Position numbers and translations under genes: made by a program. A stretch of DNA of 38,664 nucleotides from Spirulina sp. SIO3F2. Its GTDB lineage: Bacteria > Cyanobacteriota > Cyanobacteriia > Cyanobacteriales > Spirulinaceae. The stretch is from assembly GCA_010672165.1 (NCBI GenBank), contig JAAHHN010000040.1:1-38664 (forward strand), given 5' to 3'. Below are positions 4,201-33,332 of the stretch, in pieces (position 1 is the first letter of the stretch; the number at the start of each line of letters is the position of its first letter). The notes under the pieces are model-generated. The model saw nothing but the letters and a program-made list of their open reading frames with translations. It made no database searches and was not told where the DNA came from.

Positions 4201-6856
4201 CTGAATTCAAGGTTCCGGTGGTGAGAACTTTATTGTTGGCGCTGACTAGATCAATTTGCCCGCCGCTGGTTGAAAGATTCCCCAAGGTCGTGGTGATTAA
4301 GGTTTTGAGATTGACTGCTCCACCATTGGTTGTGATGTCTTGGGTAGTGATCGCAAAGGGGTCGACTCGACCGACAGGGTTGGCTAGGTTCACCGCGCCC
4401 CCATTGGTTTGGATTCTGCCAACATTTAAGTTGTTGCGACTGCTCAGGGTAATAGACCCGGTATCCGTAGTGATGGTTTGGGCATGAATCCCCACATCGG
4501 TTTCTGAGCGGGCTACAGCAGAATTGAGGCTAACGCTGCCACTGGTGGTGGTTATTGCGCTCACGGTCACGCTATTGCGCCCTTCAATATCAATATTCCC
4601 CGCACCCGAAGCGATCGTTCCCGTCGTGATCGTGCGATTAGCCAACAACGAAATATCCACCGCTCCACCCGCCGTATTGATGTTCCCGAGTTCGGTGGTG
4701 CTGCGGGTATTAACATTGACTGCCCCACCATTAGTCGTGATGTTCTGGGTATTAATGGCAAAGGGGGCTTCTCGACTCGCCGCGTTGTTGAGATTGACTG
4801 CTCCCCCATTAGTTTGGATCGTGCCGACATTCAAATTGTTGTGACTGCTGAGGGTAACGGAACCCGTATCGGTCGTGATGGTTTGGGCATGAATCCCCAC
4901 ATCGGTTGCAGTGCGACCCACTGATGAGTTGAGGTTGACGTTGCCGCTGGTGGTGGCGATCGCTCCCACGGTCAGATTACTGCGACTTTCTAACTCAATA
5001 TTGCCCACCCCCGAATCAATCATTCCAGTGGTGAGGGCGTTATTGCCTGTTATCGCAATATCTACTAGCCCCCCAGCCGTGGCAATATTCCCGAACTGGG
5101 TGATATTGGAGTTCGTCACCTGTACTGCACCGCCGTTGGTCGTGATCTGGCCCAGATGGATTTGATTGCGCCCTTGAATGGTTAATGCACCACCATTGGT
5201 ATAGAGATGGCTGGTGCTGGGATCTTGCGCCAACACTTGGCTATCGCTTTGATTCGCAATCAACCTTAGGTTCAGGGCGTTGCCGCCCGCCAAAATCGGT
5301 GTCGCTTCATTAAAGACAATATTGTCGCTCGCTTGCAGCGTTAGGGTGCGATCGGCGGCAAAGCCTGTGGTATCTAGTTGTGCTCCCGCTGACCAGGTAA
5401 TGTTTTTATTCGCTTCAAGGGTGAGATCGTTTGTGCTCAGAAGCGATCGCAGATCCGCCACCCCAATCGTCTGATCCCCACCATTTTCAGCATTATCCCA
5501 GAAGTGATCGCTCAAACCGCTGGGCAATGTCCCTACTGAGCCAGTCGTGATTGTGATGTTGCGGGGGTCAAGCAACAGTTGCCCAATTTCACCAAATGCA
5601 GCGTAGGTGCTAGCTGTGCCTGTGAATGCCAGGGTTTCCTTACCACTGACTTCAATAAAGCCACCATCTCCGCCAAACAGCCCCCCCTCCGCCGAGACCT
5701 GCCCGCCAAAGCGGGTGTTCTGATCTGCCCAGACAATGACCCGTCCCCCATCACCGAAGATCCCAGCATCGGCATATAGGCTGCTAGCGGCATCCACCAC
5801 CGTATAGGTGGCATTCGGCAACCCGCCCTGACCGTGATATTCACCCCCCACCCGAATGGTGCCGCCGTCTGTTGCACCAGACGCATCCAGCATTGCCTCC
5901 ACCAGGCCGACATTTTGACCCAGCACAGCAATTTCGCCGCCCTGAGCACCCGAAACATCGACGCTCCCGGTCACAAGACTGGTCTGGGTTTCTAGCGGAA
6001 TTTCCGTTCCGGTTGCGGTTAAGGTGACGGTATTCGCATCCGCAGCCAGACCCAAGTTGCTTAAACCTGCGTTGTCTGCTCCGGTCAGTAAGGCAGGGAG
6101 TGTCAGGGGATTGATGGATAGCACATTGCCCTGAAGATCTCGGGGCGCTTCGATTTCCAAGCTCAACAACTGACCCGACTGAGAAATATTCACCAAGCTG
6201 CTGTTGGGCACGGCCGCGATCGTGATTTGCCCAGCTGACGCAGTCAGTTCTCCAGTGTTGATGACGATATCCGCCACCAAGCCCAAATGTTGGCCAGTGC
6301 TGACAGCGAGATCTCCCGCATTGACGATCGCCCCGCCTTGAGCCAAGTCAAAAGCAAACTGATTGGGGTTGCCCACCAAAGCGGTGTAGTCTGCACTCCC
6401 CACCGCTTCAAACCATTGCCCATTACCAAAGCCGATCCCGGTGGCGGTGGTGGCGACAAAGTCGGCGGGTACATTGAGGCTGGCGTTGGGGCCAAAGACC
6501 AGCCCCGCCGGGTTCATCAGATACAAGTTGGAATGACCACCCAAAACCTGAATCAAACCGTCGATTTGGGAGGGATTACCGCCGATCACACGCCCCAAAA
6601 TATTCTGCACTTGGGGTTGACTCAGAAAATTGGCAATTTCTCCAGATGTCAGGCCAAAGTCTTGGAAACTATGGAACAGGTTTGCGCCATCGCTAGAGAA
6701 GCTGCCCCCTTCAATGAGATAGGTGCCGTTGTTTGTTGTAATTAGAGTTCCTGTGCCGTCGGCGGCTGGGGTGATAGATTGCCCAACGGCGATAGGTGTT
6801 GTGGCAGCCCAGACGATAAGCGCTGTTGTGGTTGGTAGAATGCGATCGCGCATCAT
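1214..6856 (-). CDS. Two-partner-secretion adhesin fused to C-terminal CHAT protease domain
   Basis: 1880 residues. A signal peptide (about 1-25) is followed by a filamentous-haemagglutinin-type TPS secretion domain (about 26-150) with the MNPAGLVFGPNASL signature at 114-127. TPS domains direct export through a TpsB/FhaC outer-membrane pore, which is not in this window. Residues of about 590-990 are near-identical repeat modules rich in Gly, Asn and Thr, probably a beta-helix stalk. Residues of about 1155-1497 are a Ser/Gly/Ala linker. The C-terminus is a CHAT (caspase-like) domain with both members of the catalytic dyad visible: His about 1723 in HLATH and Cys1766 in LSACQTALG. A GGGAGAG ribosome-binding site precedes ATG 6856. 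Such fusions are known in cyanobacteria. The substrate is unknown. A surface-displayed or released protease is the natural reading. Confidence 0.9.
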   Translation of the reverse strand: MMRDRILPTTTALIVWAATTPIAVGQSITPAADGTGTLITTNNGTYLIEGGSFSSDGANLFHSFQDFGLTSGEIANFLSQPQVQNILGRVIGGNPSQIDGLIQVLGGHSNLYLMNPAGLVFGPNASLNVPADFVATTATGIGFGNGQWFEAVGSADYTALVGNPNQFAFDLAQGGAIVNAGDLAVSTGQHLGLVADIVINTGELTASAGQITIAAVPNSSLVNISQSGQLLSLEIEAPRDLQGNVLSINPLTLPALLTGADNAGLSNLGLAADANTVTLTATGTEIPLETQTSLVTGSVDVSGAQGGEIAVLGQNVGLVEAMLDASGATDGGTIRVGGEYHGQGGLPNATYTVVDAASSLYADAGIFGDGGRVIVWADQNTRFGGQVSAEGGLFGGDGGFIEVSGKETLAFTGTASTYAAFGEIGQLLLDPRNITITTGSVGTLPSGLSDHFWDNAENGGDQTIGVADLRSLLSTNDLTLEANKNITWSAGAQLDTTGFAADRTLTLQASDNIVFNEATPILAGGNALNLRLIANQSDSQVLAQDPSTSHLYTNGGALTIQGRNQIHLGQITTNGGAVQVTNSNITQFGNIATAGGLVDIAITGNNALTTGMIDSGVGNIELESRSNLTVGAIATTSGNVNLNSSVGRTATDVGIHAQTITTDTGSVTLSSHNNLNVGTIQTNGGAVNLNNAASREAPFAINTQNITTNGGAVNVNTRSTTELGNINTAGGAVDISLLANRTITTGTIASGAGNIDIEGRNSVTVSAITTTSGSVSLNSAVARSETDVGIHAQTITTDTGSITLSSRNNLNVGRIQTNGGAVNLANPVGRVDPFAITTQDITTNGGAVNLKTLITTTLGNLSTSGGQIDLVSANNKVLTTGTLNSGAGNISVDGRNNLNLGNITTTSGNVTLTSSVNRDASIGINAQNITTQGGQVAIASRNTTNFGHITTQGGAIDLDILRNRVLQGGRLDSSSTAGNGGAIAIDSRGAVLLALINAQGNSNSGTGGAINITTKRDFRVTGSFLAHDGSIASISNVGGIGSPTANIVIDYATRNPSPRFDLAASFNTSGTVGAITNRSQTLQPTQSFSSRDLGTLKILGSVDPILDPDEPVIPPFSPSPFFGEIATSPSGDVTPDPLPEPLESLEELEGLNVVDLAQTTSSSSDSSSSDAASFSGSGGGGSFGSAAAAFAHAEQSFGSAFNAYFASGSGDAGASAGASGSAAASGAGGDVAAGGVGAAGSAGAAGSTGSSSGSASGSGGTGGAAGAASVGFNAGNSSAVSGSGTAGSAASGGSASATSGGSTGSVASNGSAGTAGSSGAAGSGSAGGASSSAGASGGSSASASSDSGGASSSTGASGSASGTSGGSGSGSSSLSGGSSATHAAGNSASSGSGGASNSAGTSGSASGMSGDNGSAGSNSSGSSGSSDNGSSASGGGSAAAGETATGGDSGGSASGEGSSSSDSADSASSSDAAATNNSSSDSDSSASGSGGEGSGGGSVVSVADAQASLRDIEAITGVSPALLYGIFAPPLGMSTEPQPTDQLFLILVPPNGDPIMQAVPANRQMVMRQARSFRRRVTSSQRQDYLPPAQKLYQWLIEPMLADIEAAGIEHLTFLLDSGLRSLPIAALHSGEEFLVEQYSLSLMPSMGLSDLSYRPITHMDLLAMGTSTFDEHEPLPAAGVEVELLTQELWEGESLQDDNFSAKQLKESRSQTPYGMLHLATHSNFQAGTPQDSYIQMGNERLGLNELRQLGLHSPAIELMVLSACQTALGDTEAELGFAGLAVLAGVKTAMGSLWQIDDLGTLGFMSSFYSQLREAPIKASALQRAQLSFLHAQVQVETDGLRVGDRTIPLPSELQFRDEIDLTHPYYWSAFTMIGTPW
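2350..3392 (-). repeat. Ser/Gly/Ala low-complexity linker within the adhesin/CHAT gene
   Basis: About 1 kb encodes roughly 340 residues made almost only of Ser, Gly, Ala, with some Asn, Asp and Thr. It separates the repeat stalk from the CHAT domain. The low-complexity code leaves long open frames on the opposite strand and in other frames, which I treat as shadows. Confidence 0.8.
4090..5000 (-). repeat. Direct repeats of about 405 bp inside the adhesin gene
   Basis: The segment around 4476 recurs around 4881, exactly 405 bp (135 codons) apart, with long identical runs. Flanking units are more diverged copies. Each unit encodes the same order of short strands (for example GIHAQTITTDTGS, then SRNNLNVG or SHNNLNVG, then IQTNGGAVNL), as expected for beta-helix rungs expanded by unequal exchange. 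Confidence 0.75.
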
Positions 6857-22777: not shown

Positions 22778-24106
22778 TCATGAGAGTGGTAAGCCTAATG
22801 TAAATTCTGTGCCTTGGCCAGCTTCGGATGTACAGGTCAATGTTCCTTTGTGTGCTTCTGTGATGATTTGATGTGCAATTGATAAGCCCAAACCTGTTCC
22901 TTTACCAACGGCTTTCGTTGTAAATGCAGCATCAAAGATCTTTTGCTTAATATCTTCTGTCATGCCAGTTCCATTATCAGCAATACGGATCATGACTCGC
23001 TCACCCTTCTGATCTAATTCAGTTTGGATAATAATACGATTCGGATTCTGTTGAATTTCTTGAAAGGAGTATTTTCTGCTCTGCTCATCTAAGGCATCAA
23101 TTGCATTAGCAATGATATTCATGAAAACTTGGTTGAGTTGTCCGGGAAAGCAATGGATTGATGGGATTTGACCATATACTTTAGAAACCTCAATGGCAGG
23201 GCGTTGATCGTTACCTTTAAGTTTATACTTGAGGATAACAAGTGTACTGTCGATTCCTTCGTGAATATTAAAACCCACCTTGGTGACAGTATCCGAACGG
23301 GAGAAAACACGGAGAGAGGTACTCAGAGTACGTATTCTTTGAATACCAGCCTCCATCGATTCAAAGAGTTCAGGGATATCCTCAAAGAGGAATTCAAGAC
23401 CTAATTCTTCGGTTTTCTGCTTGAATTCGACAGTAGAATCAGGATATTCTTCTTGATAAAGTCGAAGGGCTTGAAATAACGTTTCAAGATATTCTTGAAG
23501 AATATTGACATTGCCATCAATAAAACCCAGCGGATTATTGATTTCGTGAGCAATGCCAGACAGCATCTGACCAAGTGTTGCCATCTTTTCATTTTGAACC
23601 AACTGGAGTTGAGTTTTTTGGAGTTCCTGAAGAGAAACTTCTAATTCTTCAGTCCGGCTTTTAACCTTTTGATCGAGTTGCTGATTTTGTAACTCCAATT
23701 GATGTGTCAATGTTCTAACTTTATAATGAATATTTAACCGTGCCAGAACTTCCTCCATCTGAAAGGGCTTTGTAATATAGTCAACTGCACCTAGCGATAA
23801 TCCCTTTACTTTATCAACTGTCTCAGCAAGCGCGGTCATAAAAATGATCGGAATATCCATCGTTTTTGGATTGGCTTTGAGTGCTTGACACGTTTCAAAA
23901 CCATCCATTTCTGGCATCATGACATCTAATAGGATTAAAGAGGGTGGCGTATGTTGAACTTGTTTAAGGGCAATTTCACCATTCTTGGCTATAGAAACTT
24001 TCCAACCTTCACTGCGTAAGGCTTGAGAGAGAACTTTGAGATTATTGGGATTATCATCAACAACAAGAATGGGATCGGCAGTCAGTTTGTGGGCTTGAGC
24101 TTCCAT
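22778..24106 (-). CDS. Response regulator fused to histidine kinase (REC-HisKA-HATPase)
   Basis: 442 residues. An N-terminal REC domain has acceptor Asp61 (LILLDVMMPEMDG), Thr91 and Lys113 (TKPF). A coiled linker (130-175) leads to a HisKA box of the form GIAHEINNPLG with His187, then an HATPase domain (NIIANAIDAL, ADNGTGM, GKGTGLGLSI). There are no membrane segments. The REC domain at the front would let an upstream kinase control this one in a phosphorelay. It lies 68 bp downstream of the hybrid kinase gene on the same strand, so that kinase is the natural donor. No DNA-binding output is present. The final output must be elsewhere. Confidence 0.92.
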   Translation of the reverse strand: MEAQAHKLTADPILVVDDNPNNLKVLSQALRSEGWKVSIAKNGEIALKQVQHTPPSLILLDVMMPEMDGFETCQALKANPKTMDIPIIFMTALAETVDKVKGLSLGAVDYITKPFQMEEVLARLNIHYKVRTLTHQLELQNQQLDQKVKSRTEELEVSLQELQKTQLQLVQNEKMATLGQMLSGIAHEINNPLGFIDGNVNILQEYLETLFQALRLYQEEYPDSTVEFKQKTEELGLEFLFEDIPELFESMEAGIQRIRTLSTSLRVFSRSDTVTKVGFNIHEGIDSTLVILKYKLKGNDQRPAIEVSKVYGQIPSIHCFPGQLNQVFMNIIANAIDALDEQSRKYSFQEIQQNPNRIIIQTELDQKGERVMIRIADNGTGMTEDIKQKIFDAAFTTKAVGKGTGLGLSIAHQIITEAHKGTLTCTSEAGQGTEFTLGLPLS

Positions 24107-24174
24107 AATTATTTTGGATTTTCAAAAAATATTGACTTGCAAAAGTATAAAAAAATGCATCCATTAGATTGGAT

Positions 24175-26454
24175 TCAGAAATATTGATTTGCCAAATAAG
24201 GGGCGATAAATTCTTGCAACTTCTCGCCCTCAAACTCCTGAGTAAGATGTAGAACTTGACGACTGAAAGGACGAAGCTGTTCATCATTAGCGACAAGCCG
24301 GGCCATCTGTTCCTCAATCTCAAAAAATAACCCGCCACTTGCTAGCTCGTAGAGTTCAGCTAAAGCTTTTTGAGATGGCAAGATCAGTGTAGATTGTTTT
24401 TGAAGTTTTTCTGATGGGATGACGAACGTTTCACTATTCGTTTTAGCTGAAGATGTATCACTATCAGTGTGTTCGTGAATCCATTCTAAATCCAGTAGAG
24501 CCTGGAGCTTATCAAGCAGTTCTTGGGTTTCGATCGGCTTGGAAAGAAAATCATTACAACCCGCTTTTACACTCTTCTTTTGATCTGTCTCGTAGGCACT
24601 CGCAGAGCAAGCAATGATTTTCATGCTTTCAACTTGAGGCTGAGGGTATGCTCGCACCCGACGGATCATTTCAAAGCCATCCATGATTGGCATCACTAAA
24701 TCAGCAATCATCGCATTAGGCTGGCATTCAATCGCCCGTTCTAAACCTTCTTGTCCATTGCTGGCTTCAGAAATATTAAAGCCCAAAGATGAGAGGAACT
24801 CACGAATAATAGCGCGGGATTGCTCATTATCGTCAACGACGAGGATTTTTTGTTGTATGCCAGAATAACCCACAATATTGCTTTTGCAATTGTCCAGCTT
24901 AAGGATACGATCGCTAGCGGAAACAACGGGTACAGTGAGTTCAAAACTAAAAGTGCTGCCAACATTCACTTCGCTGATGATGTTTATTGTTGAATCCATC
25001 ATTTCCAGAATCTTCTTGGTAATCGCCAGCCCGAGGCCTGTTCCCTGGGCACGCTGGGCTTCACTACCACTTTGCTCAAAAGGCAGAAAAATCATTTCAA
25101 GGTGTTCTGGACTAATACCAACACCAGTATCCTGAATATGAAAACCCAACGTTTGGGTAGGCAAGCTTTCCACCTGCTGATTAGACTGTTCCAACACCTC
25201 TACTCTGAAAATCACCCCTCCTTTCTCAGTAAACGCAATGGCATTGCCCAAAAGATTAATCAAGATTTGGCGTAACCGTTTTTCGTCAGCATAGATGCCC
25301 ACTGGAAGCTGGTTTGAAGCTTGATAGGTAAAGGAAATCCCTTTTTGTTCCGCACGAATGCCACACATCTCATTGATTCCTTGTAAGAATGTAGGCAAGT
25401 GGATATCGTTAGGTGCAAGTTCCATTCTCTGAGCTTCAATTTTGCTCAGGTCGAGAATATCATTAATTAGAGTGAGGAGGTGTTGCCCACATTGATGAAT
25501 AACATTAATCCCATCTTTCTGCTGAGAGTTGAGATGCTTATCTCGTTGAAAAATTTGAGCATAACCCAGAATTCCATTGAGAGGCGTGCGTAGTTCATGA
25601 CTCATATTAGCCAAAAACTCACTTTTGGCTTTGTTGGCAGCATCCGCGCTCTCTTTAGCCTGTTCGAGTTGACAGAACGCACTTTCTAAGGTGTCAGCTA
25701 AAAAACCAATTTCTTGGGTAGAGAGTGCTGGAACTGTAAATAGCTCACCAGTTCTTTGGCTATGTTCAACTGCATCGTTCAACTGCTGAAGTGGACGCAA
25801 CACAATTGAGCGAATCAACCCTGCCATAATCAGGAGCATGACTGCATTTCCCAACAATAATGTCGCGGTTGAAGTCGAAAGCGATCGCCAAGCTTCCTGC
25901 TTCATTTCCGCTAAGTCCAGAATAGCCACCACCAGACCACGACGTTCGGCACGCTCAAACAAAGAATCACTAAAGGGAATCACTTCAACAACCACTGGCT
26001 TCTTCTCATGAACCGTCTGAAGGCTTGTTTCGATGCCAGTATTTGCTGTTTGTTCCAATGCTGCTGCCAGAGCTGGATAGGCGCTGAGATAGGACTGACC
26101 TTCTAATTTCTTGCTGCCATTGGTATGCACTAGGGCAATTCCTTCTGGATCAATGATGGCAATTTCGACAACAGCAGGTAAAGTGGCATAGTTCTGGATG
26201 ACTCGTCGCAGCAGGGCTGGATTTTGTTGCTCAATTAACCCTTCTGTGCTGTAGAGTAAACTTTCAGCGATGGCTTGAGCGCGATTTTGCACCTGTGCTT
26301 TCAAACTGCCACGAACTAGCTTGTAGTTGATGCCCAGCGTCGCTACCCCCACAGTTATTAAAGCCAAGCCTAAACCGAGTAGCAGTTGCTTAGATAGCCG
26401 ATGACGGCGCGATCGCTTTAATTGGCTTGACTCTGAGCAAGTTAGGGTTTCCAT
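24175..26454 (-). CDS. Membrane hybrid sensor histidine kinase
   Basis: 759 residues. TM1 (about 23-43), a periplasmic sensor domain (about 44-195) and TM2 (about 198-216) are followed by a HAMP-like region, HisKA (NMSHELRTPLNG, His286), HATPase (LINLLGNAIAF, QDTGVGI, GTGLGLAI), a REC domain (LVVDDNE, Asp585 in IADLVMP, Lys639 in SKP) and a 70-residue helical tail (690-759). The tail is not an obvious Hpt. The ATG lies inside the last codons of the binding-protein gene (13-nt overlap), so the two are translationally coupled. The periplasmic domain is a plausible docking site for that binding protein, which is inference. Confidence 0.92.
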   Translation of the reverse strand: METLTCSESSQLKRSRRHRLSKQLLLGLGLALITVGVATLGINYKLVRGSLKAQVQNRAQAIAESLLYSTEGLIEQQNPALLRRVIQNYATLPAVVEIAIIDPEGIALVHTNGSKKLEGQSYLSAYPALAAALEQTANTGIETSLQTVHEKKPVVVEVIPFSDSLFERAERRGLVVAILDLAEMKQEAWRSLSTSTATLLLGNAVMLLIMAGLIRSIVLRPLQQLNDAVEHSQRTGELFTVPALSTQEIGFLADTLESAFCQLEQAKESADAANKAKSEFLANMSHELRTPLNGILGYAQIFQRDKHLNSQQKDGINVIHQCGQHLLTLINDILDLSKIEAQRMELAPNDIHLPTFLQGINEMCGIRAEQKGISFTYQASNQLPVGIYADEKRLRQILINLLGNAIAFTEKGGVIFRVEVLEQSNQQVESLPTQTLGFHIQDTGVGISPEHLEMIFLPFEQSGSEAQRAQGTGLGLAITKKILEMMDSTINIISEVNVGSTFSFELTVPVVSASDRILKLDNCKSNIVGYSGIQQKILVVDDNEQSRAIIREFLSSLGFNISEASNGQEGLERAIECQPNAMIADLVMPIMDGFEMIRRVRAYPQPQVESMKIIACSASAYETDQKKSVKAGCNDFLSKPIETQELLDKLQALLDLEWIHEHTDSDTSSAKTNSETFVIPSEKLQKQSTLILPSQKALAELYELASGGLFFEIEEQMARLVANDEQLRPFSRQVLHLTQEFEGEKLQEFIAPYLANQYF

Positions 26455-27512
26455 ATTTCAATAGCCTGATTGACAGCTTCTGCATTAATTTGAATATCGT
26501 CTCGAATCACCCGTCCATGTCGTGGATCAGCCTCAAAGAGTTCACCCATAGAGAGCATTGCTTCTGGCAAACGACCGTCCGCTTGGAACATTGCCCGGTT
26601 CATTTCAATGTCCCCTTTTTCAAGTCCCGCATAGTCATTGGCAAAATCCTCTGGGCTAATATCGAGTTGTTGACCCACCAGTTCAAAGACTGGTTTAGGA
26701 TCAACCTCTAACAGATGCATTAAATCAAACCAAGCTAAAACAAATTGTTTGAATTCCGCTTGTTTAGCCTGCACCGTTGAGACGCTTGAGATCAAACCAT
26801 CAATGACCAAACTGTCGAGATCCTTAGTTGTGTAGGGAATGTTGCCCTGGATTTCTTCTGCTATTTCTCCCAATAGTGGTTCCCATAACACTGCTCCATC
26901 CAGCTTGCCTTCACTCATCATTTGAGCAGCAATTTCATTGGAGACATCTTGAATTTCAATCGTCTGGGGATCAATTTGATATTTATCCAACGCTTCAAGC
27001 CAGATCAAATGGTTGACTGTTCCGAGCTTGACACCCACTTGCTTATCTTTAAGGGCTTCAAGAGATTTAAACTCTGGTTGTGTAACAATCCCATCTGCTC
27101 CCGCTGAAACATTGGTCACCATAATAAAGGCCGGTTGATCTTCGCCAGGCGTGGATTGCAGAATATCCCAGAGGGCGGTAAAGGCTGCATCCAGTCGCCC
27201 ACGTAGAACTGCACGAGAAGAATCTTGCTGATTGTCGAAACGGACAAATTCCACATCTAAGCCGCGTTTCTCAAATAAGCCAGCCTCCTTTGCATAGATG
27301 GCTACATCGAATCCTGGCCATTGGGTAATACCGATTTGCAAGGTTTTAGTGGGAGCGTTCTGCCCAATGCAACCGGGGAGGGAAAGCGTCAATAGCAGCA
27401 CCATGACAAATAAGCTCGCCAAAAGCCTTACCGACTGGGACTTAAGTGAAGAACTGAGGCGAGACTGCACCCCCCTGAGCATCATCAATTTGGGCAGTTT
27501 GGGGAGGTTCAT
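26442..27512 (-). CDS. Lipoprotein solute-binding protein, NMT1/SsuA/ThiY-like
   Basis: About 356 residues. I chose ATG 27512, preceded by AGGA, over the upstream TTG 27536. A signal peptide ends in the lipobox LPG-C (about Cys48). The mature protein opens with LQIGITQWPGFDVAIYAKEAGLFEKRGLDVEFV, the hallmark of the NMT1/THI5-like periplasmic binding family (sulfonate, taurine, nitrate, thiamine precursors). GRLDAAFTALWDIL and QVGVKLGT are further family features. No permease or ATPase gene is nearby. Instead the gene overlaps that of a membrane kinase, which suggests that it presents its ligand to the kinase. The ligand is unknown. Confidence 0.87.
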   Translation of the reverse strand: MNLPKLPKLMMLRGVQSRLSSSLKSQSVRLLASLFVMVLLLTLSLPGCIGQNAPTKTLQIGITQWPGFDVAIYAKEAGLFEKRGLDVEFVRFDNQQDSSRAVLRGRLDAAFTALWDILQSTPGEDQPAFIMVTNVSAGADGIVTQPEFKSLEALKDKQVGVKLGTVNHLIWLEALDKYQIDPQTIEIQDVSNEIAAQMMSEGKLDGAVLWEPLLGEIAEEIQGNIPYTTKDLDSLVIDGLISSVSTVQAKQAEFKQFVLAWFDLMHLLEVDPKPVFELVGQQLDISPEDFANDYAGLEKGDIEMNRAMFQADGRLPEAMLSMGELFEADPRHGRVIRDDIQINAEAVNQAIEIWKP

Positions 27513-27772
27513 ATTCCTGGCTTTGTTGGATATCAAATGGTCTGCATTTCTGTTGGGCTATTCTTTTTCAATGAATTTGAGCGATATTCAGGACAATCAG
27601 AGAAGAAGCTAATGCTAAAGAATAGTGGTACTTGGGTATTCTTCTGTATTGGTATTTGTCTATACAAATTATCATAATTTTCATTAAAGATCACTTTTAT
27701 GAGTGTAAGTAATGTTTAATTGCTATTGCGGCCATTTCGATCTTCTCTATGCTAATTCAGTAATGCTTGGAG
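27513..27772. other. Spacer upstream of the binding-protein operon
   Basis: AT-rich, no gene. AAGAATA at 27618-27624 pairs perfectly with TATTCTT at 27637-27643 (12-nt loop), about 105 nt upstream of the binding-protein start. It could be an operator or leader hairpin. The operon promoter must lie here, but no convincing boxes stand out. Confidence 0.35.
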
Positions 27773-28086
27773 CTATTCACCTTCAAATTCTTTAGTCAAG
27801 GATAAGACTTGATGAATAAAGAGTAAAAATTGGGGTTCTTCAGTCTGAAGTTGAGCCAGTCGCTCTGCGATATCAAGAAATAGACCTCCAACACCTGAAT
27901 CAGCGATCTCAGCTAAAATCCCTTGAGAAAAAATTGAAATGATAGCTGTGATTTGATAAATATCAGGACTTGCTAGTGAATAAGTACCAGAATAAGAAAA
28001 ACTGAAGTTCGATTTTTGATATAACTGTTCCGAATTCAAAAGCAATTGTAGTTCACCTAGAGGATCTCGATGAATTGAGATCCTCT
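27773..28086 (-). pseudogene. Remnant of a hybrid histidine kinase C-terminus
   Basis: The minus-strand frame, open from just after a stop at 28087-28089 and ending at 27773, resembles residues of about 648-745 of the hybrid kinase encoded at 24175-26454. GELQLLLNSEQ matches DKLQALLDLEW. AEIADSGVGGLFLDIAERLAQL matches AELYELASGGLFFEIEEQMARL. HQVLSLTKEFEGE matches RQVLHLTQEFEGE. The upstream kinase domains are missing and the frame stops directly after EFEGE, about 14 residues short. It is best read as the decayed end of a duplicated kinase gene. A short expressed protein starting at TTG 28045 cannot be excluded. Confidence 0.65.
28059..28086. repeat. Perfect 10-bp stem hairpin
   Basis: AGAGGATCTC at 28059-28068 pairs exactly with GAGATCCTCT at 28077-28086 across an 8-nt loop. 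It lies at the upstream edge of the kinase remnant and may mark the end of an inserted or rearranged segment. There is no T-run, so a terminator is unlikely. Confidence 0.5.
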
Positions 28087-28787
28087 AATGACATAAGCTC
28101 TAAAATTGAGATGTGACGCAAATATTTTGTTTGAGTTGATTGCAAAAAATGTAGTTTTTGATACAAAAAACATTGAACCTGATTGCCAAAATCATTGCAG
28201 TTCTGCTTACGTGAGCATAACTGTGTATTTAGGAAAAGCGAGTCAATCTATTAAGACTGTGCTACTTGAGGCAACTAACCTCCAAAAAGAAATGATATGT
28301 TTTAGGACGTATCATTAAATGAGACTAAACTCTTTAAGGAATAGGCGATAGCGATGACCTGAACGATCTCACGATCTAAAAAGTGAGTTAGGGCGATGAA
28401 TCCCGCGACAGCAATATGCAGAGATTCAATTGATGGCAGTCTCTAGTGCTAGATTTTCCTATCCGAAATCTCCTGAAATTCTGCTTAAAGCTGCGTTGAT
28501 AGATTTGCTTGGAGAAGATTTATGCTCAGTCCATGTGCATTGTCAAAAAATATCAGTACAATTTAATTAGACTGCATCTATTTTGAAACCTGGGGTTTTG
28601 GGCAGGGAAATAACCCAGCGGGGTTTAGAGTAACCACAAGGGGATGGCCTTTACCGTATTCCAAAACGACACATCTCAATCTGTTTGGGCTTAGAACCGC
28701 ACAAAACCGTGCTCTCCTCGATCCAGATGTTGGTTGTGCCTCTTCTTCAAGGATTTTCCTTTTACGCTTCAGACCCTCTTCAATTCC
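28087..28787. other. Gene-poor spacer with decayed sequence
   Basis: About 700 bases without a convincing gene. Two short open stretches stand out: minus strand about 28306-28445 (contains HIAVAGFIALTHFLDREIV) and plus strand 28433-28570 (45 codons from ATG, contains YPKSPEILLKAALIDLLGED). I recognise neither and both may be fragments of decayed genes. The promoter of the UrtA-like kinase gene should lie near the right end. Confidence 0.35.
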
Positions 28788-30986
28788 ATGATCCCTCTCC
28801 GCCCCCACAATCAGAAAATCCGGGTTGGCATCCTTCATTCTTTGACAGGCACCATGGCCTTAAGCGAAACACCACTGGTGGATGTAACGCTAATGGCGAT
28901 CGCCGAAATCAATCAGGCAGGGGGGGTGCTTGGCTGTGAACTCGAACCGATTTTGCAAGATGGAGCCTCTAATCCAGAACAGTTCCACCGCATGGCCCAA
29001 CAGCTCGTTGAAATGGATCAAGTCGCCACGGTCTTTGGCTGTTGGACATCCCTTTGCCGTAAGGCTGTTTTGCCTGTTTTTGAAGCCCGTAATATCCTCC
29101 TCTGGTATCCGGTGCAGTATGAAGGTTTAGAAGGGTCGCCCTGTGTGTTTTACACGGGCTCTTGCCCCAACCAACAGGTTGAACCTGCCCTCAATTGGCT
29201 GTTGGCTCAGGGTCGGCGGCGGATTTATCTGGTCGGGTCAGATTATGTCTTCCCACGTGTAGCCAACAAAATCATCAAGGGTCAACTCAAGCAAACGCAA
29301 GGGGTTTGCGCAGGCGAAGACTATGTACCGCTTGGCTCAAACGCATTCGAGACCATTGTCAAACAAATCCAAAGCGTTCAGCCAGAGGCCATTTTCAGCA
29401 CCCTCAATGGCGATAGCAATCTGGCGTTTTATGAGCATTGTCAAAGGGCTGGAATTACCCCTACTCAAATGCCGATTATGGCGGTGAGTGTGGCTGAAGC
29501 GGAACTCAAACGCATTGGCGCATCAGCAGTGGGGCATTATGCCTGTTGGAGCTATTTCCAGAGTTTGGAAATGCCCCAAAACCAACAGTTTGTCCAACGG
29601 TTTCAGCAGCGCTACGGAGCCGATCGCGTCACCAGTGACCCCATTGAAGCGGCCTATACACAGGTTTATCTCTGGAAACAAGCGGTTGAGGCTGCGGGTA
29701 CAATTAGCACCGATGCTGTACGCCAGGCAGCCTACCATCAGCGATGGGATGCACCCGGTGGGCCCGTGACCTGTGAAACAAACCATCACCTCCAGAAAGA
29801 ATGTCGCATTGGCCAAGTCCAAGCCGATGGCCAATTCCGGATTGTTTATACCAGTCCGGGGCTACTCAAACCCCTGCCCTGGTTAGGAGTGGAGGAATAT
29901 TTTTCGGGGTCTCAGCAGGTGGTGATTGAGCTACTGCGGGAGGTGTCTCAAGGGGTGCAATATAGCTGGGAACTAGAGCAGCGATCGCACCTTCTGAAGC
30001 AAACTACCCGCCAGTTGCGCCATGAAATTCGCCAGCGTCAGCAGGCGGAACAGGCCCTGCATGCCGCGAATACAGAAATCATGGCGCTAAATGAATCCCT
30101 CCGGGCTGATAAAACCACCTTAGAGCAGCATGTCCGCTCCCGAACCCGCGATCTTGAGACTGCCCTCCGTCAGCTTCAGGACACCCAAGCTCAGCTGATC
30201 CAAACCGAGAAGATGTCAAGCCTGGGGCAAATGGTGGCGGGGATCGCCCATGAAATCAATAATCCCATCAACTTTGTTTATGGAAATCTCTTCCATCTCC
30301 AGCAATATTTGCAAGACCTCTGCGACCTTATACAACTCTATGAGCAAAGCTATGAGCCCACACCAGAAATTGCGGCGAAGGCGGAGGATATGGAGTTGGA
30401 GTTTGTTTTGGGGGATATTAATAAACTCCTAGAATCCATGGGGGTGGGAGTTGTCCGAGTGCGGGATATTGTCAGTGCGATGCGGAATTTTTCCCGGTTG
30501 GATGAGGCGGCGATTAAAGCCGTGGATCTCCATGAAGGTTTGGAGAGCACGCTGCTAATCTTAGGTAATCGCCTTAAAAGTGGTTGTGCGATCGTTAGGG
30601 ATTACGGTTCATTGCCCCCAGTTCAATGCTATCCTGCCCAGATCAATCAGGTGTTTACCAACATTATTGTTAATGCGCTCGATGCCATGGAAGAGGCCAA
30701 TTCACCCACACAACGGCTGACCATTACGACGCGGGCGATCGCAGATGAGCAAGTGCAAATTTCTTTCCAAGACACAGGGCCAGGAATTCCGCCTGAGCTT
30801 CAAGCCAAGATCTTTGATCCGTTTTTCACCACTAAGCCTGTGGGCAAAGGTACAGGTCTCGGTTTAGGAATTTGCTATCAAATTATCCAAAAGCATGATG
30901 GGCAGCTTGAGGTCTTTTCAGAATTGAATCAGGGCACAGAATTCCGGATTACATTGCCGATTGATCTGCTACTGCCCTTGACTTAA
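28788..30986 (+). CDS. Cytoplasmic histidine kinase with UrtA/AmiC-like ligand-binding domain
   Basis: About 732 residues from ATG 28788; a TTG at 28734 is possible but adds no signal peptide. Residues of about 8-375 are a complete type-1 periplasmic-binding fold of the urea/amide branch (UrtA, FmdD, AmiC): RVGILHSLTGTMALSE, then VFGCWTSLCRKAVLPVFE, then YPVQYEGLEGSPCVFYTG. A coiled linker follows, then HisKA (GIAHEINNPINF, His488) and HATPase (NIIVNALDAM, QDTGPGI, GKGTGLGLGI). No membrane helix exists anywhere, so ligand is sensed in the cytoplasm, as AmiC does. Urea or a short amide is the likely class of ligand. No regulator gene is adjacent on this strand. Confidence 0.9.
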   Translation: MIPLRPHNQKIRVGILHSLTGTMALSETPLVDVTLMAIAEINQAGGVLGCELEPILQDGASNPEQFHRMAQQLVEMDQVATVFGCWTSLCRKAVLPVFEARNILLWYPVQYEGLEGSPCVFYTGSCPNQQVEPALNWLLAQGRRRIYLVGSDYVFPRVANKIIKGQLKQTQGVCAGEDYVPLGSNAFETIVKQIQSVQPEAIFSTLNGDSNLAFYEHCQRAGITPTQMPIMAVSVAEAELKRIGASAVGHYACWSYFQSLEMPQNQQFVQRFQQRYGADRVTSDPIEAAYTQVYLWKQAVEAAGTISTDAVRQAAYHQRWDAPGGPVTCETNHHLQKECRIGQVQADGQFRIVYTSPGLLKPLPWLGVEEYFSGSQQVVIELLREVSQGVQYSWELEQRSHLLKQTTRQLRHEIRQRQQAEQALHAANTEIMALNESLRADKTTLEQHVRSRTRDLETALRQLQDTQAQLIQTEKMSSLGQMVAGIAHEINNPINFVYGNLFHLQQYLQDLCDLIQLYEQSYEPTPEIAAKAEDMELEFVLGDINKLLESMGVGVVRVRDIVSAMRNFSRLDEAAIKAVDLHEGLESTLLILGNRLKSGCAIVRDYGSLPPVQCYPAQINQVFTNIIVNALDAMEEANSPTQRLTITTRAIADEQVQISFQDTGPGIPPELQAKIFDPFFTTKPVGKGTGLGLGICYQIIQKHDGQLEVFSELNQGTEFRITLPIDLLLPLT

Positions 30987-31859: not shown

Positions 31860-31909
31860 GGGGTGGGGTGTAGAACGAAACCCAATACCCAGCACCCAAC
31901 ACCCAGCTG
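31845..31909. repeat. G-rich run with quadruplex potential and imperfect hairpin
   Basis: Four G-tracts of three or more, with loops of 1-4 nt, at 31845-31868 meet the standard G-quadruplex pattern on the plus strand. The first tracts encode the C-terminus of the CPBP protease. Downstream, C-tracts (ACCCAGC, ACCCAACACCC, about 31880-31909) can pair with the G-run in a long imperfect hairpin. It could act as terminator or insulator before the amidase gene. Confidence 0.5.
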
Positions 31910-31925
31910 CTTCGGAGTTCAGTAT

Positions 31926-33332
31926 ATGGATAAAACCGCGATCGCTTTTGCCTCGGCCATCGAGCAAGCCCAATGGATTCGCCAAGGTGAGCTGTCGCCG
32001 CTGGAACTCACGCAACTATGCCTAGAGCGGATCGCGGCGCAGGATGGCGCGATCGGGAGTTTTTTTACGGTGTTGGCAGAGGCAGCGATCGCTGAAGCCC
32101 AAACTAAAACTGAACAACTCGCCCAAAAACCCGAGCATCTGCCTCCGTTCTTTGGTGTTCCTACTGCCATCAAAGACCTCAACGCCATGGCTGGTGTGCC
32201 TTTTTCGCTGGGTGTGGCAGCTTTACGGGAGAATCCAGGGCCGGTAGACGATGGTATGGTGCAACGACTACGGGCGGCGGGCTTTACCCTTCTAGGCAAA
32301 ACAGCCACCTGTGAGTTGGGACTGTTCCCCACCACTGAAGCACCGGGTTTCCCGCCCACTCGTAACCCGTGGAACCGGGCTTATACCTCCGGTGGCTCTA
32401 GTGGTGGTGCGGCGGCGGCGGTGGCGGCGGGCTTTTGTGCGGTGGCTCAAGGCTCCGATGGGGGCGGCTCGATTCGGACACCCGCCTCCTGTTGTGGGTT
32501 GGTGGGCTTAAAGCCTGCTCGGGGTCGCGTGACCCATGCGCCGCTGGGCTACCATCCCGGCAGTATTTCTACAAATGGCATGCTTACCCGCACGGTGGCG
32601 GATGCGGCAGCGCTGTTGGATATCATTTCAGGCTATGTCACGGGCGATCCATTTTGGTTACCCTCGCCAGAACAGCCTTATGCCCAGTTGCGTGGGGAAG
32701 AGCTGCGGCCGTTGAAAATTGCTTGGAGTGACACAATTTCTCCCATTGGCCAAGCCGCTCCCATTTGCCAGGCAGCAGTGGCTCAAACAGTTCAGCAACT
32801 TGAATCCTTGGGTCATCACCTCGAACCCAGCGCTCTGGATGTTGCTGCTTTGCAAGACCCCTTTAAAGTCATCTGGCAAGCCAGCGTTTGTGCCTCTGGT
32901 TTACCATTAGAAATCCTGAGTCCGATCGCCCAATGGTTGGGTCAGCAGGCGGGGTCATTGCAACGTTACTTTGGTGCGATCCAACAGATGCAGATCGCGG
33001 CCCGGCAGCTAGTGGGCTTTTTTGAGCAATATGATGCGCTGTTGCTCCCTGTGCATCTCCACAGCCCCCTTAAGATTGGGGCGTTGGAAAATCTGCCGTT
33101 TGAGGAGACCTTAGAGCAGATTATTCATTGGATTGCGCCTTGTCCGTTAGCCAATGCCACAGGACTACCCGCGATCGCACTCCCAGCATTGCAAGATGAA
33201 CAGGGCTTACCCATTGGCATCCAAATTGTGGGCAAGCCAGCCGATGAGGCGACATTGATTCAGTTGGCACTACAGCTTGAAGCCGTGAATAATTGGCCGA
33301 CAATCCAATCACTTAAAACTTACCGCCATTAA
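31926..33332 (+). CDS. Amidase, amidase-signature family
   Basis: 468 residues from ATG 31926; the earlier frame from 31863 reads through the G/C repeat and is less likely. The Ser-cisSer-Lys triad is visible: Lys83 (TAIKDLN), Ser158 in SGGSSGG and nucleophile Ser182 in GSDGGGSIRTPAS. The family hydrolyses amides to acid and ammonia, and includes GatA, AtzF and fatty-acid amidases. Length fits a stand-alone amidase rather than GatA with GatBC partners, which are absent here. Its closeness to the UrtA/AmiC-like kinase is suggestive for amide or urea metabolism, but unproven. Confidence 0.9.
   Translation: MDKTAIAFASAIEQAQWIRQGELSPLELTQLCLERIAAQDGAIGSFFTVLAEAAIAEAQTKTEQLAQKPEHLPPFFGVPTAIKDLNAMAGVPFSLGVAALRENPGPVDDGMVQRLRAAGFTLLGKTATCELGLFPTTEAPGFPPTRNPWNRAYTSGGSSGGAAAAVAAGFCAVAQGSDGGGSIRTPASCCGLVGLKPARGRVTHAPLGYHPGSISTNGMLTRTVADAAALLDIISGYVTGDPFWLPSPEQPYAQLRGEELRPLKIAWSDTISPIGQAAPICQAAVAQTVQQLESLGHHLEPSALDVAALQDPFKVIWQASVCASGLPLEILSPIAQWLGQQAGSLQRYFGAIQQMQIAARQLVGFFEQYDALLLPVHLHSPLKIGALENLPFEETLEQIIHWIAPCPLANATGLPAIALPALQDEQGLPIGIQIVGKPADEATLIQLALQLEAVNNWPTIQSLKTYRH

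Follow-up and report, generated by a model that had tools for sequence, protein, structure and literature searches.

A probable cytosolic urea-responsive sensor histidine kinase with a UrtA-type binding domain in Spirulina sp. SIO3F2 and its fusion relatives in cyanobacteria

A receptor with a binding fold of the transporter type may also work inside the cell. AmiC of the Pseudomonas amidase operon does so and is a precedent for a cytosolic receptor of this fold; there, receptor and antiterminator are two proteins, with AmiC holding AmiR. In NasS-NasT, a cytosolic nitrate-binding protein acts together with an antiterminator, so that a transporter-type binding protein is reused inside the cell, and the urea-responsive AraC-type activator UreR would likewise answer to intracellular urea. 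The protein described here differs from both, since NasS-NasT uses another binding-protein family and separate proteins without a kinase, and UreR is a DNA-binding regulator with an unrelated fold.

The study of UrtA from Prochlorococcus (PMC10392092) names nine residues near urea: W120, S122, Y141, Q144, E146, Y190, F192, N246, and S274. In that study, urea binding was reduced or lost in mutants of S122, Q144, Y190, or N246, the W120A variant bound no urea, and F192 was of little importance. In the crystal, UrtA had closed on its urea ligand, in a simulation without urea it opened, and its Kd for urea was about 141 nM (PMC10392092).

The window, which is the whole stretch of 38,664 nucleotides of Spirulina sp. 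SIO3F2 DNA analyzed here, contains a gene that encodes a UrtA-like domain fused to a histidine kinase (Table 1). A sequence-only reading of the window had proposed a complete UrtA/AmiC-type fold and a HisKA-HATPase kinase in one open reading frame, and the Pfam and NCBIfam scores together with the kinase motifs confirmed this fusion as real and far beyond chance. An alternative start at TTG 28734 would extend the product from 732 to 750 residues, and pocket positions in the longer form are those of the shorter form plus 18. In the 750-residue numbering, PF13433 (Peripla_BP_5) matched residues 29 to 386 with 492.8 bits (cutoff, 27), HisKA residues 497 to 590 slightly below its cutoff, and HATPase_c residues 635 to 743 above its cutoff of 26.4. 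The binding fold could be aligned to UrtA and AmiC chains, and the cutoff of the NCBIfam UrtA model TIGR03407 (492.75) was exceeded by a narrow margin with 494.4 bits. The kinase half possesses the H, N, and G motifs of histidine kinases, namely, AHEINNP (487), NIIVNALDAM (625), DTGPGIPP (662), and GTGLGLGI (688) in the 732-residue numbering. It resembles the kinases of model NF038348 (T2SS_HK) with 271.6 bits at residues 419 to 743 (750-residue numbering), but the protein stays below the cutoff of 450 for this model and has an unlike input domain. A weak AlphaFold2 model of the whole protein, derived from a 19-row alignment (mean pLDDT, 61.4; pTM, 0.35), predicted a single helix from residue 376 to 473 running into the DHp helices; its Foldseek matches, 8tg1, UrtA, and AmiC, had an rmsd of about 12 and served for chain titles only.

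Table 1. Positions of the fusion gene, its parts, and further features
Feature	Sequence	Position	Strand	Size or basis
UrtA-like domain/histidine kinase fusion gene	Window	28788..30986	+	732 aa, ATG 28788
Peripla_BP_5/UrtA-like type-1 periplasmic-binding fold, export signal absent	Window	28818..29891	+	495.3 bits, profile 1-360/363
Nine-residue urea pocket, W86 S88 Y107 Q110 E112 Y153 F155 N207 S234 (732-aa numbering)	Window	29043..29489	+	Alignment
Linker PLPWLGVE...QYSWELEQ and long helix, sensor-kinase junction	Window	29901..30206	+	Alignments; low-confidence AlphaFold2 secondary structure
HisKA/DHp region	Window	30219..30494	+	HisKA 25.3 bits (cutoff 26.9), motif, predicted helices
Candidate phospho-accepting His488 in AHEINNP	Window	30249-30251	+	Motif position
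HATPase_c catalytic domain	Window	30636..30962	+	90.9 bits, motifs
Amidase gene, downstream neighbor	Window	31863-33332		PF01425 (amidase signature)
CheY-like regulator	L052	9696-10253		
CheY-like regulator	L054	10569-11114		
CheY-like regulator	L059	9139-9690		
CheY-like regulator	L062	675-1313		

A search of the window for urtE and urease genes gave no match, which places the gene outside a urtBCDE cluster as judged by these two. Four NtcA boxes (GTAN8TAC) were present in the window compared to 2.7 expected, a number reached by 30 of 100 shuffles and therefore uninformative. Promoter and terminator scans revealed no excess, and an Rfam search of the window gave no match at gathering scores.

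The kinase had been described as soluble, without signal peptide or membrane helix, and this was borne out. An in-frame stop at positions 28692 to 28694 leaves room for at most 31 codons upstream of the ATG, which encode a mildly hydrophobic stretch (WLCLFFKDFPFTLQTLF) interrupted by K and D, so that a longer start, which could have brought in a signal peptide, does not provide one. The peak hydropathy over 19 residues of the 750-residue form was 1.31, and no segment reached 1.6; the verdict on the export signal combines this hydropathy test with a reading of the N terminus. Three homologues (L025, L026, and L027) start one residue inside the start at ATG 28788. In the longest reading of 40 further fusions, the aligned binding domain starts between residues 4 and 46; in 10 of the 40 it starts at residue 4, too early for an export signal to precede it. 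In two of the 40, L138 and L145, the N terminus read from the most distant upstream in-frame start contains a hydrophobic stretch; both have a Met directly before the binding domain. Two predicted membrane helices separate the binding domain from the HAMP-kinase-receiver part in L063 to L065, and two membrane crossings would bring the binding domain to the side where the kinase lies. Apart from this HAMP type, L052, L138, and L156 each have one internal segment just above 1.6, away from the N terminus. The upstream stop, the hydropathy, the starts of the homologues, and the topology of the HAMP type make the predicted cytosolic location of the window protein well supported at the level of sequence.

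Comparison of the pocket with UrtA and AmiC revealed that all nine residues listed in Table 1 are identical to those of UrtA 8hic in the alignment. AmiC departs at five of the nine positions (W to Y, Q to P, F to Y, N to V, and S to T), all of which have the UrtA residue in the window protein. A loss of pocket residues, which would speak against a urea-type sensor, was thus not found; given the weak structural model, retention was judged from the alignment. The best-matching solved chains by sequence were 8tg1 with 424 bits and 7s6f, 7s6e, and 8hic with 343 to 358 bits, all of them urea-binding proteins by title, and the AmiC chains reached 189 to 190 bits, about half of the top scores or less. 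Judged by alignment, the pocket is of the UrtA type and not of the AmiC type, and the agreement at nine of nine positions with UrtA versus four of nine with AmiC indicates that urea would fit better than acetamide. The window protein shares with UrtA of the UrtABCDE system the whole binding domain, the TIGR03407 score, albeit narrowly, and the nine pocket residues, but UrtA is exported and feeds a transporter, whereas the domain in the window has no recognizable export signal and is fused to a kinase. The fold and, from sequence only, the cytosolic location are as in AmiC, but the pocket differs and a kinase within the same polypeptide provides the output. The proposal of a cytoplasmic sensor of the UrtA/AmiC type therefore holds for the location and has to be narrowed to UrtA with respect to the pocket.

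The fusion is not confined to Spirulina. Sensor plus linker, used as query at an E value of ≤1e-138 against 388 genomes of the order, matched in 51 genomes from 26 of 149 genera, at 60 places with open frames of 493 to 1463 aa, the shortest of which (G567) is cut by a contig end; 6 of the 60 places (in G477, one of two in G551, and in G448, G591, G519, and G504) are not among the collected fusions. A phylum-wide sample at 1e-136 gave matches in 11 of 386 genomes, 4 of these by free UrtA only. With the binding domain as query, plasmids gave 1588 records, and the best of these was checked for a fusion. The outputs of 69 fusion proteins, assigned by a local search with domains taken from Pfam, were GAF-kinases (26), cyclases of the guanylate/adenylate type (16), GGDEF domains (9), SpoIIE phosphatases (7), kinases without GAF (5), HAMP-receiver hybrids (3), and unassigned (3); this set leaves out the pieces of broken fusions in L030/L066, which are one contig, and in L095. 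The kinases without GAF comprise the window protein, L024, L061, L122, and L051, the last one also with PAS domains. A linker resembling PLPWLGVE...LLxEVSxGIQYSWELEQ is common to the fusions, weaker in some and unseen in the HAMP type.

The tree of 42 binding domains contained the free UrtA proteins as one group, with an uncertain root and uncertain deep forks. One change suffices when only fused and free rows are counted. The periplasmic protein 8tg1, which this count leaves out, clustered with the HAMP-type fusions (100/99), and this grouping suggests more than one origin of the fusions. The domain of the window protein was sister to SpoIIE-linked domains of the Nodosilinea type (100/99) and not to that of L024, which indicates that outputs have been exchanged. 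Several outputs on one sensor are as expected of a sensory module.

A number of observations concern the surroundings of these fusions. All nine GGDEF loci, which are close relatives (L088, L089, L090, L126, L128, L129, L132, L135, and L141), have a Ser/Thr-kinase gene immediately upstream of their fusion. Regulators of the slr1658 and slr1659 families precede a UrtA-SpoIIE fusion split into two frames (L030, 4738-8048), and a relative of slr1659 is positioned ahead of the fusion in L121 (70-393). The UrtA-GAF-kinase fusion on plasmid pA of Kovacikia minuta (L095, 5968-8650) is also split into two frames and adjoins, by eye, an apparent ABC transporter with a binding protein. A CheY-like regulator adjoins the fusion in 4 of 26 GAF-kinase loci (Table 1); these regulators are 58 to 76% identical to that of L052 and are candidate partners in the respective four genomes. 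Another one is about 4 kb away in the cyclase locus L154, and none was found next to the fusion gene in the window.

The most direct evidence for urea as the ligand is a single case, the gene cluster in L024, a metagenome-assembled Pseudanabaenaceae cyanobacterium (MP8IB2.15). Its fusion protein is the closest full-length relative found, with 51% identity over residues 11 to 725, although other sensor domains are closer to that of the window protein in the tree. On the plus strand, urtE (TIGR03410, 327.2 bits; cutoff, 285.8) is followed by the fusion gene, ureD (PF01774, 215.6 bits), ureA, a small gene pair, ureB, and the start of ureC, and the gaps flanking the fusion gene are 37 and 0 bases. 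The small pair between ureA and ureB (5748-6208) is a ParE-like toxin gene with its likely partner. Two loci of one genus with GGDEF output, L132 and L141, have ureB at distances of 3.7 and 4.5 kb and ureB plus ureC within about 7 kb; L132 has unrelated genes and one on the opposite strand between the fusion and ureB. Under the assumption of 2 to 4 urea gene clusters per 6.5-Mb genome, two or more such cases of ureB nearness in the 952 kb of 68 fusion loci have a probability of about 0.04 to 0.12, so that such nearness is only marginally above chance, and no urea gene was near the kinase gene in 14 control loci (164 kb).

A urease alpha match was present in 48 of 51 fusion-bearing genomes of the order-wide sample. 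Limited to genomes with at least 90% completeness and at most 5% contamination, it occurred in 42 of 42 genomes with and in 264 of 296 without the fusion (one-sided P of 0.011, with relatedness ignored). The match in G017 was weak, and the fusion genomes without urease alpha, G522 and G534 (no match) and G560 (absent from the matched rows), are of lower completeness. The Spirulina genome itself encodes a free UrtA (contig C174), UrtE, and urease alpha, all outside the window.

The nearby amidase gene had been taken as a clue to an amide or urea ligand, and this did not hold. The amidase is not a member of the AmiE family, which is of the nitrilase type (PF00795). With tblastn, no homologue of the amidase was found in 66 related loci (26 plus 40, with limited flanks and some short contigs), which include one without binding domain (L031) and one contig counted as both L030 and L066; L088 to L092 and L095 lay outside this search. 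Of 18 other related genomes, 14 have the amidase, and 6 of these 14 also have the fusion (G003, G007, G008, G013, G016, and G017), in all six on separate contigs. Because it is unlinked in relatives and on other contigs, the amidase is no guide to the ligand, and it was rejected as a functional partner. A conserved pair of CAAX protease and amidase was also rejected, with a CPBP match in 0 of 14 amidase loci of relatives (about 3.1 to 4.4 kb). Neither ANTAR nor a nitrilase-type amidase was found in 10 window proteins around the gene at an E value of ≤0.001. On the other side, on the minus strand, an NMT1/SsuA-type lipoprotein-like binding protein gene (26442-27536) overlaps the start of the gene for a membrane hybrid kinase-receiver (24175-26454), which is followed by that for a receiver-kinase (22778-24106). 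The region 22778-27536 is likely a binding-protein/kinase operon divergent from the fusion gene. Between them, 27767-28060 (minus strand) resembles the C terminus of the neighboring hybrid kinase (36.6% identity; E value, 1.3e-11) and seems to be a decayed duplicate of it.

At the sequence level, the domains, the lack of a recognizable export signal, the urea pocket, the kinase motifs, and the relative in a urt-ure cluster come together, and the window protein is probably a cytosolic urea-responsive sensor histidine kinase. The N-terminal UrtA-like domain, which lacks an export signal, would close on intracellular urea, and this closure may be relayed through the long helix to the DHp/HATPase core, so that the change in the helix alters autophosphorylation of His488. 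The phosphorylated kinase would signal to a response regulator, and the use of urea or nitrogen would be adjusted. We infer the cytosolic location, urea binding, and its coupling to kinase activity, as well as the partner regulator and the target genes. A cytosolic sensor as tight as UrtA could be saturated whenever urea enters the cell. Answering to traces, it may rather read whether urease keeps internal urea very low.

Alternatively, the kinase could sense another small amide or amidine in the cytosol, such as formamide, acetamide, or guanidine. AmiC as an amide receptor of the same fold matches significantly (190 bits), UrtA-like pockets could admit short amides, and in Bradyrhizobium a UrtBC-like transporter cluster is located beside amidase genes (PMC3098086). 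The pocket also varies among the 69 fusions, which include close relatives and are not independent: all nine residues are kept in 41, including the window protein, and other differences occur in 9. The remaining 19 have a change of Q to E at the position of Q144 as the sole difference, which was confined to the GAF-kinase class (L057, L123, L125, and L137 among the carriers), and the ligand may have changed in this sub-branch. Guanidine as its ligand found no support, since no guanidine riboswitch was detected in 10 of the 19 loci and no arginase-family gene near the fusion in 18 of the genomes; such genes exist in 13 of these 18 (G016, the 19th, was outside the search), the closest on the same contig at about 36 kb (G529). 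A c-di-AMP riboswitch (59.7 bits) is present near the UrtA-GAF-kinase gene of L123 (12164-12328). None of the five substitutions of AmiC occurs in the window protein, the amidase neighboring its gene is unlinked elsewhere, and L024 is placed among urease genes, which makes another amide or amidine an unlikely ligand here.

The domain might instead be ligand-free and serve as a scaffold or dimerization platform for the kinase, and the pocket has indeed been lost in a few relatives, such as L060 with ESYFECLTN instead of WSYQEYFNS. A scaffold would need none of these residues, but they are intact in 41 of the 69 fusions and, except for the Q-to-E change, in 19 more, so that this possibility appears very unlikely. 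Export of the binding domain by an unrecognized route for sensing of periplasmic urea would agree with the free UrtA proteins of related genomes, which bear export signals (an RRKFL-type signal in 10 of 11 printed N termini, the 11th being without it in the printed part; L020 is outside this set because the search pattern missed it), and with the hydrophobic N termini of L138 and L145 in the longest reading. Each of these two has a Met right before the domain, however, and the at most 31 upstream codons in the window, the fold start at residue 4 in 10 homologues, and the three HAMP-type proteins with the domain on the kinase side leave export hardly credible. An intracellular urea sensor thus stays the preferred reading, and because the urea pocket has been mapped by published mutants, this idea is testable at once.

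The families of both halves are already known. In the open-access literature covered, with subscription journals mostly excluded, no description was found of a fusion between a urea-type binding domain and a cytosolic kinase, nor of the cytosolic urea-type pocket or the range of outputs. With respect to the family, the balance tips slightly toward a cyanobacterial class of intracellular urea receptors in which the UrtA domain minus its export signal is a portable cytosolic sensor with many outputs: histidine kinases, GAF-kinases, guanylate/adenylate and diguanylate cyclases, SpoIIE-type phosphatases, and membrane-tethered hybrid kinases. Should urea binding hold, this would be of wider interest. 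It would show clearly how the binding protein of a transporter can become a portable sensor inside the cell. Urea is for cyanobacteria a nitrogen source as well as an internal breakdown product. With a direct cytosolic receptor and general outputs, cells would measure internal urea as a signal, read via two-component, cyclic-nucleotide, c-di-GMP, and partner-switching pathways.
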